From Natrialba asiatica DSM 12278 (GTDB taxonomy: Archaea; Halobacteriota; Halobacteria; Halobacteriales; Natrialbaceae): a DNA stretch of 64,000 nt. The notes beneath the pieces were generated by a model. It was not told the DNA's origin. It worked only from the letters and a program-made list of their open reading frames with translations, and made no database searches. The stretch covers positions 219,775 to 283,774 of the forward strand of contig NZ_AOIO01000040.1 of assembly GCF_000337555.1 (NCBI RefSeq), given 5' to 3'. Shown in pieces: positions 13,369 through 18,157 of this stretch. Each line of letters begins with the position of its first letter. The stretch's first letter is position 1. The position numbers and the translations under genes are program-made.

Positions 13369-14715
13369 TTACAGCGCGTCCTTATACGCTTCGAGCGTGT
13401 CCTCGACGTCCGCTTCGATGTGTCCGTAGCTGACGAACTGACACTCGAACTGGTTCTGCGAGAGGAACACGCCCTGCTCTTTCATCTGCCCCCAGAAGAT
13501 GCGCCGCCAGCGGTCGCTTTCGGCGGCTTTCACGTCGCCCGCGTCCTTCGGACTGAACTCGTAGCGCGGGCAGTCGGGGTCCTGTCGGGAGCCGGCCGGA
13601 CACTGGCCGTCGAGTTCGTCGCGCCCCGGCCCCTCGCGGGTGAATATCACCTTGAACATGCTGTCCGTCCCGGTGACGGTGTAACTCGGGGCCTGGTCGG
13701 CGACGATGTCGGTGAGGCCGCTGCGAAGCTGTTCGCCCAGGTCGTTGACGTGCGCGTACACGTCGTTTTCGGCGGCGAACTGCAGCGTCTCGAGGCCGGC
13801 GGCCATCGTGACGGGGTGGCCGGAGAAGGTGCCGGCCTGGAAGACGTCGCCGGCGGGCGTGAAGTGCTCGATAATCTCGGCGCGGCCGCCGATCGCGCCG
13901 ACCGGGAAGCCGCCGCCGATGATCTTCCCGAAGGTGGTGAGATCGGGCGTGACGCCGAACTCACTCTGGGCACAGCCGAGGCCGCCGACGCGGAAGCCGG
14001 TGATGACTTCGTCGAAGATGTGTAAGGCACCGTACTCGGTCGTGATCTCGCGGACGAACTCGTGGTAGCCGTCTTCGGGGTAGACGATGCCGTGGTTGCC
14101 GAGGATCGGCTCCGTGAGAACGGCCGCGATGTCCTCGCCGTGTTTCTCGAAGACCTCGCGCATCGCGTCCTCGTCGTTGAACGGCACCGGGAGGGTGTGC
14201 TCGGCGAAGGCCTGCGGAATCCCCGCCGAGGAGGGCGTTGGGCTCTCGGCGTCGCCCTCGACCAGCGTCGACTCCTGGGCCCCGTGGTAGCCGCCCTGCA
14301 TGACGACGATCTTGTTCCGGCCCGTATAGCCGCGCGCGAGTCGGACCGCGGAGGTCGTCGCCTCGGTTCCCGAGTTCACGAAGCGGATCTTTTCGACGCT
14401 CGGGACGTGGCGGACGACGAACTCGGCGAGGTCGACCTCGATTTCGGTGGGGGTGCCGTACATCGGTCCTTCGCTGGCTTTCTGCTGGATGCCGGCCTGG
14501 ACGGATTCGGGGAGGTTGTGGCCGAGCAGCAGCGGGCCGAGGCCCATGACCCAGTCGATGTAGCGGTTGCCGTCGGCGTCGATGACGTGGCCGCGGTCGC
14601 CTTTCTGGACGAAGAACGGATAGGGTTCGATCGCCGCACGAACGGCGGAGTTCACGCCGCCGGGCATCACGGAGAGCGCCCGGTCGTACAGCGCACGCGA
14701 GTTGTCGTCGGTCAT
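13369..14715 (-). CDS. hemL: glutamate-1-semialdehyde 2,1-aminomutase
   Basis: PLP enzyme converting glutamate-1-semialdehyde to 5-aminolevulinate in the C5 pathway. It has 448 residues; the PLP-binding lysine is Lys264 in [14 protein letters not shown], matching the position in bacterial GSAM. Other family blocks are [12 protein letters not shown] at the N-terminus, [17 protein letters not shown] and [12 protein letters not shown] hydrophilic segment rich in Cys and Asp ([20 protein letters not shown]) near residue 375 is an insertion relative to bacteria. The start at 14715 gives the standard N-terminus ([13 protein letters not shown]); the longer frame to 14910 looks non-coding. A second, divergent class III aminotransferase lies at 55566-57002. 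Confidence 0.94.
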
Positions 14716-14928
14716 GCGCGGGCCTAGGTAACGGAACGGCAAAGTAGTACCGAGGTTCGACTGACGGCCTCCGATTACGACGCCGTTGAACGATTGGTGA
14801 ACGAAAACAGGCACCCCCGTGATATCCTGGTCCCCGTGACATCCTGCCATCCGGAGACTGGCTGTCCGGTAGCCGGCGTGGGTCCGTCCCTCCCCCGAGT
14901 TCAGACCCACGTCGTGTCGGTTGTCGGT

Positions 14929-16647
14929 TCAGACGGCGTCCGAACCGGTCTTTCCGGTGCGGATCTGGTAGGCGCTCTCGACGGGCGTCACGAAGATTTT
15001 CCCGTCACCGGGTTCGCCGGTGTGTGCGCCCTCGCTAATTGCGTCGATAACGTCGTCGGCGGGGATGTCGGCGACGACGCACTCGATTTTGACCTTCTGG
15101 TGGAGGTCGACCGTGTACTCCTCGCCGCGCCACTGGCCCTTCTTTGCGGGCTGGGAGCCGCGACCGGAGACGTTGGTGACGGTCAGCGACGGTGCGCCCG
15201 CTTCGGCGAGCGCCTGTTTGACCTTGCCGAGGCGGTCGGGGCGGATGATCGCGGTGACCATCTTGATCTCGCCACCGTTTGGCTTGCCCCCGTCGGTCCG
15301 GATTTCTGGCTCAGCGTCGCCTGCACGCGCTGGGCTGCCGCCGTCGGTTCGAACGTCCGAGACGGTTCCGCTGCCGTCGGTGGCCACGTCCGGCTGGCCG
15401 AACTCGGGGTAGGTGTCGACGCCGTGTTCGGAGACGTCGAGGCCGTCGCGTTCGTGTTCGGGCGTGACGCGGGCCTGTCCGGCGGCTTTGAACACGAACC
15501 AGATCGCAGCGGTCGCGGCGACCGTCCAGACGGCGATGACGGCGACGCCGGCGAACTGAGCGATGAACGCCTCGGTGCGGGTCGCACCGAGATCCGCCAT
15601 GTATCCCGACGTTGCGACGAGCGGGAACAGCAGCGTGCCGAGGACGCCCGCGGAGCCGTGGACGGGGAAGACCGCACAGACGTCGTCGATCTTCAGGTAG
15701 TTTTCGACGAATCCGAAGACGAGCGGGAGTTGCGCCCCGGCGAGACCGCCGACGAGAAACGCACCCCACCAGGTCGAGGCGTCCGGAATCGCGGTGATCC
15801 CGACCAGCCCGGCGAGCAGTCCGTTCGCGACGTATAGCGTGTCGACCTTCCCCGTCTTGAGCCACGCGACGAGTCCCGCACCCATCGCACCGCAGGCCAT
15901 CGCGATCGTCGTCGTCATGGCGACGCGACCGAGCTGCTCGCCGAGGAACGCGCCCTCCTCGGAGAAGATCGCCGACGTCCCGACGTTGAAGCCGTACCAG
16001 CCGAAGGCGAGGATCAACGTTCCGAGGACGGCGAACGTGAGCGAGTGACCGGGAATGACGTTCGCGGTGCCGTCACTGTTGTACCGGTCCATGCGCGGAC
16101 CGAGGATCCACGCGGCGGTGAGGCCGGCGATACCGCCCATGCCGTGGACGATCATCCCGCCCGCGAAGTCCGAGAACGGCGTGCCCGTGAGCGTCTCGAT
16201 GTACCCGCCGGCCCAGGTGATCCCGGTGACGACCGGATAGATGACTGCGGCCAGCAGGAACGTGTAGGTGACGTACGCGCGGAGCTTCGCACGGCCGGCG
16301 ACGGCTCCCGAGACGATGGTCGCCGCCGTCATCGCGAAGACGGCGCCGTACAGCCAGTCGATCCACCCCGTCCCATCACCCGTGAACGCGGGCTCGAACC
16401 CCGCGCCGGCGACCGCGCTTTCGACGCCGATACCGACGAGGAAGAACACCGTTACGCCGACGCTCCAGGTCAGCAAGTTCTTCGTCAGCTGGTTTGCAAC
16501 GTTCTTCGAGCGCACCTGCCCTGCCTCGAGCATGGCGAAGCCGGCGTGCATGAAGAAGATCAGGAACGTGACGACGAGAATCCACGTGTAATTGATCGCC
16601 TCCATCAACGCATCGGGCTCGGTTTGGAGCACCATCGACTCCATCAT
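14929..16647 (-). CDS. ammonium transporter fused to a PII signalling domain (Amt-GlnK)
   Basis: A 572-residue single-chain fusion. Residues about 10-405 form an Amt channel ([18 protein letters not shown], the family block [18 protein letters not shown], and [16 protein letters not shown]), followed by the usual Amt tail ([15 protein letters not shown]). A 60-80-residue acidic linker then leads to a complete PII domain (residues 463-572). The PII part keeps its T-loop with the tyrosine (Tyr511, in [16 protein letters not shown]) and the ATP-binding B-loop [13 protein letters not shown] proteins normally are separate trimers that plug Amt pores according to 2-oxoglutarate and ATP/ADP; here stoichiometry is fixed by fusion. 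The start at 16647 is set by a strong ribosome-binding site; a GTG 6 codons upstream overlaps that site. Confidence 0.92.
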
Positions 16648-16651
16648 CCGC

Positions 16652-16659
16652 TCACCTCC
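16652..16659 (-). promoter_or_regulatory. strong Shine-Dalgarno sequence of the Amt-PII gene
   Basis: On the minus strand GGAGGTGA lies 4 nt before the ATG at 16647. It decides the start codon. It stands out because most genes here appear leaderless. It fits a leadered mRNA from the TATA box at 16761-16770 (leader about 90 nt). Confidence 0.75.
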
Positions 16660-16687
16660 GTCCACGCACTACCGTTCCGTATTTGTA

Positions 16688-16697
16688 GACATATGTC
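16688..16697. promoter_or_regulatory. palindrome in the Amt-PII leader region
   Basis: GACATATGTC is a perfect 10-bp palindrome, extended to a near-perfect 16-bp dyad (GTaGACATATGTCcAC). It lies about 40-50 nt before the start codon, between the putative TATA box and the ribosome-binding site. It is a candidate operator for nitrogen control of the transporter; no protein is assigned. Confidence 0.4.
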
Positions 16698-16760
16698 CAC
16701 GTCCCATCCAATCAACTTCGTGGTTATGTTCTGAATCACGTCTATCCTCGATGGACTAGC

Positions 16761-16770
16761 TATATATAAG
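16761..16770 (-). promoter_or_regulatory. TATA box, probably of the Amt-PII gene
   Basis: CTTATATATA on the minus strand, the strongest AT-rich element in this intergenic region. Transcription would start near 16735 and give a leader of about 90 nt carrying the dyad and the Shine-Dalgarno sequence. Confidence 0.5.
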
Positions 16771-17152
16771 GATTAGCGTTGATGTTCGTCTAAAAATCGG
16801 CGGATAATAGGGGCAGCCGAACAAATCTAAAGGTGGTTTAATGTGTATAAGGGTATTGGATTTTGTGTCTTTTTCGTCTCGCGGGTATCTATCCGGCGTT
16901 CGTGAACTCGAACTAACGGCGATCTGTCGCGTATCGTACCGAGATGACGACAAATTGTGTCACGACACCGCACGCGCGGCAGATGTTGCCACCCGTTCGG
17001 CAGATGGAGACATCGGTTGGACGTTCGTCCGAATGGTGGTGTCTCACACTGGGTTTGCCGTAGATGCCCACGTGTTACCGATCGAGTATCGGATCCAAAT
17101 CCGACGATACGTTCGCAGTCGGTGGGGCAATGCCCCCGAAATGGACCTCCGT
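16771..17152. other. intergenic region without a supported gene
   Basis: An AT-richer stretch between the Amt-PII promoter and the 3' end of hemB. Open frames on both strands here run antisense into hemB or encode residues without haloarchaeal bias. No RNA gene or clear terminator was recognised. Confidence 0.5.
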
Positions 17153-18157
17153 TCAACGCAGTTGTTCGGCGATGTCCTCGGCGAAGTACGTCAGAATCAG
17201 ATCCGCTCCGGCCCGCTTGATCGACAGCAGCGATTCGTGGGCGGCCGCTTCGAGATCGAGCCACCCCTTCTCCGCCGCGGCGTGGAGCATCGCGTACTCC
17301 CCGGAGACGTTGTAGGCGGCGACCGGCTGCTCGAACTCGCGGCGAACGTCGGCCACGATGTCGAGGTACGGAAGCGCGGGTTTGACCAGTAGTACGTCCG
17401 CGCCCTGCTCGACATCGAGGCGGACCTCGCGCATGGCCTCGCGGGCGTTGGCGGGGTCCATCTGGTAGTGGCGGCGGTCGCCAAAGGCGGGTGCCCCGTC
17501 GGCGGCGTCCCGAAACGGGCCGTAGAAGGCGCTCTCGTACTTCGCGGCGTAACTCATGATCGGCACGTCGTCGAACCCCTCGCCGTTGAGTTCGTCTCGA
17601 ATCGCGCCCACCATACCGTCGGTCATGCTACTCGGCGCGACCATGTCCGCGCCGGCCGCGGCGTGAGAGACGGCCGTCCGTCGGAGCGAGTCGAGCGTCG
17701 CGTCGTTGTCGACGGTCAACGACGGATCCTCGCGCGATCCAGTCTCGGTCTCGCGGATACCGGGTTCGAGCGTTCCGCAGTGGCCGTGCTCGGTGTACTC
17801 GCACAGACACACGTCGGTGATGACGTAGGCGTCCGTCTCGGCGGTAATCCGTCGCGTCGCCTCCTGGACCACGCCGTCTTCGGCCCAGGCCCGCGTCCCC
17901 TTCGCATCCTTCGATTCCGGAATCCCGAACAGCATCACCGCTTCGACGCCGGTTTCGAGCACCTCCTCGACGCGAGCGACGCTGTCCTCGATCGGCACGC
18001 GCTCGTGGCCCGGCATCGACTCGATCGGCTGGCGCTCCGCCGTCGTCGCATCGACGAACACCGGCGCGATGAGATCCGTCGGCTCGAGGCTCGTCTCGCT
18101 GACGAGCCCGCGGATCCGGTCCTGCCGGAGCCGCCGCGGGCGATGTGTGAGATCCAT
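17153..18157 (-). CDS. hemB: porphobilinogen synthase (5-aminolevulinate dehydratase)
   Basis: Condenses two 5-aminolevulinates to porphobilinogen. It has 334 residues. Both Schiff-base lysines are visible: Lys206 in SYAAKYESAFYGPF and Lys259 in LLVKPALPYLD. The cysteine cluster DVCLCEYTEHGHCG marks a zinc-dependent form of the enzyme. The ATG at 18157 (MDLTHRPRRLRQD) fits family N-termini and has an AT-rich box about 26 nt upstream (18178-18187). The much longer open frame upstream is arginine-rich and non-coding. Together with hemL, hemC, cobA and hemD nearby, most of the route from glutamate-semialdehyde to uroporphyrinogen III and precorrin-2 lies within 9 kb; hemA is not in the window. 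Confidence 0.94.
   Translation of the reverse strand: MDLTHRPRRLRQDRIRGLVSETSLEPTDLIAPVFVDATTAERQPIESMPGHERVPIEDSVARVEEVLETGVEAVMLFGIPESKDAKGTRAWAEDGVVQEATRRITAETDAYVITDVCLCEYTEHGHCGTLEPGIRETETGSREDPSLTVDNDATLDSLRRTAVSHAAAGADMVAPSSMTDGMVGAIRDELNGEGFDDVPIMSYAAKYESAFYGPFRDAADGAPAFGDRRHYQMDPANAREAMREVRLDVEQGADVLLVKPALPYLDIVADVRREFEQPVAAYNVSGEYAMLHAAAEKGWLDLEAAAHESLLSIKRAGADLILTYFAEDIAEQLR

Follow-up and report, generated by a model that had tools for sequence, protein, structure and literature searches.

The window, a stretch of 64,000 nucleotides from Natrialba asiatica DSM 12278 (contig NZ_AOIO01000040.1, positions 219,775 to 283,774), carries on its reverse strand a gene in which an ammonium transporter (Amt) is fused to a PII protein (14929..16647). 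Counted from the ATG at 16647, the product comprises 572 amino acids. The ATG is preceded by a Shine-Dalgarno-like sequence (GGAGGTGAG, 16651..16659, reverse strand), which was read from the sequence, and further upstream a TATA-like element on the same strand (CTTATATATA, 16761..16770), recognized by eye only, is a probable archaeal promoter. The uninterrupted frame spans 14929-16665 if the in-frame GTG at 16665 is taken as the start codon; the ATG with its Shine-Dalgarno-like site is the more likely start and the GTG is less favoured. The gene is located between hemB (porphobilinogen synthase, 17153..18157) upstream and hemL (glutamate-1-semialdehyde aminotransferase, 13369..14715) downstream, all three on the reverse strand within positions 13369-18157 of the window. 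Both neighbours were assigned to their families by inspection and are given for context. This placement in a haem gene cluster is shared by many of 80 related loci from several haloarchaeal families, of which 57 have hemL on the downstream side and 40 have hemB on the upstream side.

As proposed in the preliminary description, Amt and PII are encoded in one chain: Pfam matches to Ammonium_transp (residues 28-419, E 1.6e-94) and to P-II (residues 468-572, E 7.1e-28) are both full-length and lie in a single frame. A frameshift between the two parts, which the same description had named as an objection, or an assembly artefact could be ruled out, since the fused frame is unbroken in 172 of the loci read and the fusion proteins of the nearest named relatives, N. 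aegyptia and N. taiwanensis, which were sequenced separately, are 98% identical to it. For the Amt and PII domains alike, dN/dS values of about 0.08-0.24 were obtained, which indicates that purifying selection acts on both. AlphaFold2 models of 59 fusions gave a mean pLDDT of 81, with low confidence at residues 407-447 and, over the T-loop, at 494-515; the stretch 407-447 is presumably disordered.

The Amt channel domain (PF00909, 15409..16584, reverse strand) matches profile positions 2-399 of 399 with a score of 317 bits against a curated cut-off of 23, and its predicted fold agrees with solved Amt structures. The equivalents of the pore residues F107 and F215 (Phe gate), W148, D160 and the twin histidines H168 and H318 are kept, while the equivalent of Ser219 is a threonine in every haloarchaeal Amt examined. 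By domain and pore residues, the fusion belongs to the Amt/Mep/Rh family, and ammonium transport is predicted. The C-terminal region of the Amt part (24 residues, 15400..15471, reverse strand) corresponds to the tail of E. coli AmtB, RVPEEQEREGLDVNSHGENAY. Conservation is highest in this docking tail, with a mean column identity of 87% over 129 fusions; outside the linker, the conservation of Amt tail and PII amounts to 85-87%.

The nearest solved structures found for the Amt part by Foldseek are the ammonium sensors Ks-Amt5 (6eu6) and Sd-Amt1 (8qj3), with about 31-32% identity. For this reason, a non-transporting sensor of the Ks-Amt5 type with PII as its output was considered, and the equivalents of Glu31, Asn47 and Thr109 of the Ks-Amt5 intramembrane ammonium site, as well as of F27, are indeed kept. 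This reading was rejected on residues and is regarded as quite improbable: in the fusion, Gln24 is replaced by His, Asp50 by Thr, T51 by Trp and T112 by Ser, two of the three bulky pore-blocking residues of Ks-Amt5 are non-aromatic (Y30 is Leu, F34 is Gln), the protein is the only Amt of its genome, and the residues that are kept are common to the GlnK-paired split Amts of haloarchaea and methanogens. Two classes of haloarchaeal Amts can be distinguished by residues 40 and 66 (GTG numbering; loci L003-L244), both part of the Ks-Amt5 intramembrane ammonium site, which are either Gln/Asp, as in Ks-Amt5, or His/Thr. The His/Thr class comprises 169 of 170 fusions, and the split Amts are divided into 41 Gln/Asp and 36 His/Thr proteins. 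The Gln/Asp pair is also present in methanogen Amts that partner GlnK, so the Ks-Amt5 ammonium site may not be specific for sensors.

The two domains are connected by a linker of 47 amino acids (15268..15408, reverse strand), which is rich in Gly, Asp and Glu, contains TDGG repeats and has pLDDT values mostly below 50. Across the fusions, the linker has a length of 23-71 residues (median 33), and its Gly/Asp/Glu-rich composition recurs with a varying number of TDGG repeats. The linkers are disordered according to the models and never shorter than 23 residues; fully extended, 23 residues would reach up to roughly 75 Å, which is probably enough for ordinary docking.

The GlnK-type PII domain (14932..15267, reverse strand; PF00543, 97 bits, profile positions 2-102 of 102) is complete. 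Its T-loop region (19 residues, E. coli positions 37-55, 15103..15159) contains the equivalents of Gln39, Arg47 (residue 507 from the ATG, 513 from the GTG) and Tyr51, and the residue map places the nucleotide-binding B-loop TGEPGDGK, with the equivalents of G87-D-G-K90, at 14998..15021 (both on the reverse strand), in agreement with the T-loop tyrosine and B-loop noted previously. In 135 distinct fused PII domains, the equivalents of Gln39, Arg47, Lys58 and G87-K90 are invariant. The equivalent of Arg103 is kept and that of Arg101 is Gln; this exchange is probably harmless because nearly all free haloarchaeal PII proteins (63 of 67) share the Gln. In the Foldseek search, the PII part matched Haloferax mediterranei GlnK2 with 76% identity (4ozj/4ozl/4ozn, the best solved relative, 4ozn being the ATP complex). 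From the effector residues, trimerization and the binding of ATP, ADP and 2-oxoglutarate are predicted. A degenerate PII domain was ruled out by the intact effector residues of the 135 fused domains together with the dN/dS values given above.

The genome (4.4 Mb, 99.8% complete) encodes a single PII and a single Amt, both as parts of the fusion gene. A second, free glnK, the presence of which the preliminary description had proposed to check, was searched for in this genome and not found. Among 125 Natrialbaceae genomes, 117 possess PII and the same 117 possess Amt, and the remaining eight have neither; none of the 125 has one without the other. A repeat search of six of these eight genomes again yielded neither. 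Nearly complete genomes of the family that lack both include one of the same genus (G045) as well as G030-G033 and G099.

By frame length, as called in two agreeing searches and counted by hand, about 111 of the 117 PII-bearing family genomes contain the fusion and six contain only a free PII beside a free Amt; about ten of the fused genomes hold an additional PII, and in about 101 the fusion is the sole PII. A fusion-wide profile was run against 393 genomes of the phylum; these include 62 haloarchaea that do not belong to the Natrialbaceae, of which 32 have an unbroken fusion. Outside the haloarchaeal order, all 22 listed places spanning both parts (hand count) contain stop codons and thus represent adjacent separate genes; within the phylum sample, the fusion is therefore a haloarchaeal trait. 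The earlier statement that the two proteins are usually separate in haloarchaea has to be revised in view of these numbers. In public annotations, the fusions are named 'ammonium transporter' only.

A free PII could in principle be produced from the fusion gene as a second product by initiation at Met469, an in-frame ATG at the third codon of the PII part. This codon is not preceded by a Shine-Dalgarno sequence, a site of this kind near the PII start was detected in only 3 of 141 fusions versus 63 of 68 split genes, and the equivalent of Met469 is Leu in 22 of 172 fusions. The sequences thus indicate that the glnK ribosome-binding site has been lost in the fusions, internal translation of a free PII is unlikely, and a gene with two products is the least probable of the readings considered, with very little chance of being correct.

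Where the genes are split, glnK lies downstream of amt in the same orientation, with a median of 13 nt between the amt stop codon and the PII start. In 15 of 81 split loci, both genes are in the same frame, and in three genomes (G235, G291 and G212) a single stop codon separates an in-frame pair. The N-terminus of free GlnK reads MSD..LPNDGG-IKMV, and by homology the linker is the tail of a free Amt joined to the N-terminus of a free GlnK. A tree of 100 Amt and PII pairs was calculated from the concatenated proteins by a quick search under LG+G4, which assumes that both parts travelled jointly. The fused/split label switches 13 times on this tree, of which at least 10 switches are forced by well-supported branches and some may include lateral transfer. 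A single origin of the fusion was rejected by the tree, as the fused proteins do not form one clade (AU p 1e-5 without L043). Most fusions belong to one Amt subclade; the other contains L043, which arose as a fusion independently. According to this tree, the interchange between fused and split state happened at least about 10 times, which suggests that the tether changes little in function.

Free PII genes were also observed beside fused genes in seven loci (L213, L131, L065, L141, L007, L011 and L012; two copies in L213), several of them with linker-like N-termini. These are apparently partial duplications, which would restore a soluble PII. In two Halosimplex loci (L137 and L143), a free PII is found in place of the fusion, 126-168 nt past the amt stop codon, and its N-terminus bears a linker remnant (RTDGG..PNDGE or RTDGG..PNDGG). 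Both are candidates for the fission of a fused ancestor.

The fusion may be nearly neutral and work exactly as the separate adjacent pair does, with joining and splitting as drift by loss and gain of stop codons between close neighbours. The at least 10 state changes, the lack of a single clade of fused proteins, the short and sometimes in-frame spacing with one stop codon, and a linker that is merely two old tails joined all fit this explanation. On the other hand, fusions are the prevailing form in a whole family, the docking tail is kept and the glnK start signal is lost, and a free PII is absent in about 101 of the 125 family genomes, which leaves no room for a soluble role. Near-neutrality is considered a possibility, to which clearly less than an even chance is given.

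The reading that is favoured, and considered likely, is that the fusion acts as a single-chain Amt/GlnK gate, in which the tethered PII plugs its own channel trimer. The chains would trimerize via the Amt part, and the three PII domains, held below the membrane on flexible 47-residue tethers, would form the usual PII trimer. In a nitrogen-poor cell, bound ATP and 2-oxoglutarate would hold the T-loops away and ammonium could enter. At falling 2-oxoglutarate, with ADP in place of ATP, the T-loops and their Arg47 equivalent would enter the cytoplasmic exits and shut the same Amt trimer. PII would then be an obligate gating domain, always present 1:1 with the channel. As the only PII of the cell, with the start site of glnK lost, it could not serve as a soluble messenger. 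A further PII that could relay the signal to other targets is certainly missing.

Gating in place is plausible because the protein is a single chain with an intact PII, there is no free glnK, and the linker is long, flexible and spares the docking motif. The joint presence or absence of Amt and PII in the family genomes likewise speaks for it. Two features of the AmtB-GlnK pair are retained, the C-terminal docking motif of Amt and Arg47 of the T-loop. A soluble GlnK that is reversibly recruited to the membrane has no counterpart here, with a single chain, no other PII and no internal start signal. The fusion would therefore be expected to work like the AmtB-GlnK pair, yet it is not a member of the two-protein system. 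The trimer geometry, the gating and the effector response of the fusion are inferred.

Effector control of this kind is documented for separate proteins. In Archaeoglobus Af-GlnK3, the exchange between Gln39 and Lys58, with ADP versus ATP/Mg/2-oxoglutarate, decides if the Amt pores can accommodate the T-loops (PMC3198391), and in E. coli ADP and 2-oxoglutarate alone govern the association of GlnK, without covalent modification (PMC4274968). The latter is of importance because GlnD is missing from archaea (PMC10714827), although for Haloferax, GlnK uridylylation has been reported, as cited in PMC3831643. Haloferax GlnK binds AmtB following ammonium shock (PMC3831643).

Alternatively, the main role of the tethered PII might be to keep glutamine synthetase, or a different PII target, at the mouth of the channel and in this way to couple uptake to assimilation, and not to plug the pore. 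H. mediterranei GlnK activates glutamine synthetase in vitro (PMC3831643), M. mazei GlnK1 is reported to bind glutamine synthetase too (PMC10651883), glutamine synthetase genes are present in the genome, and the linker would allow the reach. Against this, no sequence pointer to glutamine synthetase docking was found beyond the ordinary PII residues, a T-loop inside the pore cannot simultaneously hold the enzyme, and the family genomes without Amt are also without PII. Such a scaffold role is regarded as unlikely in comparison with the single-chain gate.

PII proteins are soluble sensors that bind many targets. The fusions constitute a large natural group in which PII is available at one target only, while close relatives keep the genes apart. 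Comparing fused and split relatives is thus a natural way to test what share of PII signalling consists in channel gating, and the fusion offers a system of fixed stoichiometry for transport, binding and structural work. Tentatively, the Natrialbaceae may have largely given up the diffusible PII messenger and kept PII as a built-in channel gate, where the tether could keep a salt-labile contact between PII and channel workable in a multimolar-salt cytoplasm; this is viewed as possible rather than likely. For E. coli, Marsh et al. (2013, PMC4009401) note that AmtB and GlnK come apart in high salt.

The fusion itself is already catalogued: Marsh et al. (2013, PMC4009401) list AmtB-GlnK among the complexes with subunits known as a gene fusion, which bears out the remark in the preliminary description that such fusions have been noted in some databases. 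This was the only mention retrieved, and no work on the function of an Amt-PII fusion was found in the open-access literature, so its view of the regulatory consequence as unstudied stands within this literature. What is new is how widespread the fusion is, that it occurs without any free PII, that the start site of glnK has been lost, and that genes have fused and split repeatedly.

With E. coli AmtB-GlnK (2NS1, 2NUU) and Archaeoglobus Amt/GlnK3, the fusion shares the Amt fold, the docking motif, the PII residues Gln39, Arg47 and Lys58 and the B-loop, and a T-loop plug under the control of ADP, ATP and 2-oxoglutarate would be expected here as well. In contrast to these pairs, it is one chain with a 47-residue linker, from which PII cannot dissociate. 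The gene order also differs, being amt-glnK in haloarchaea, with PII C-terminal in the fusion, and glnK-amtB in E. coli. The AmtB1/2 and GlnK1/2 proteins of H. mediterranei (PMC3831643; 4ozj/4ozl/4ozn) belong to the same subfamily, and the linker is homologous to the tail of this type of Amt and the N-terminus of this type of GlnK; there, two separate proteins are present, and GlnK is recruited to the membrane upon ammonium shock and, as mentioned, acts on glutamine synthetase in vitro.

Among bacteria, surveyed in a plasmid collection, fusions with an N-terminal Amt and a C-terminal PII, annotated simply as 'ammonium transporter', were likewise found on Bacillota plasmids (L245-L248) of Ruminococcus albus 7 (pRUMAL02), Enterococcus raffinosus, Monoglobus and Subdoligranulum. 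They are about 33-37% identical to the haloarchaeal fusions, with an unrelated linker and altered T-loops that lack Tyr51, and presumably arose independently. The Monoglobus fusion directly follows a gene for glutamine synthetase III.

Ks-Amt5, an Amt-histidine kinase (6eu6, PMC5764959), also carries a C-terminal signalling domain on an Amt. It is a sensor, as is the Sd-Amt1 receptor (8qj3/8qj4), and neither the high-affinity ammonium site of Ks-Amt5 nor its pore block is conserved in the fusion. Unlike in these sensors, the extra domain of the fusion is proposed to be an input or gate rather than an output. In M. mazei, an archaeal Amt, AmtB1, is bound and probably inhibited by GlnK1, which is brought to AmtB by the 61-amino acid adaptor sP36 (PMC10714827), whereas in the fusion a covalent tether is used.
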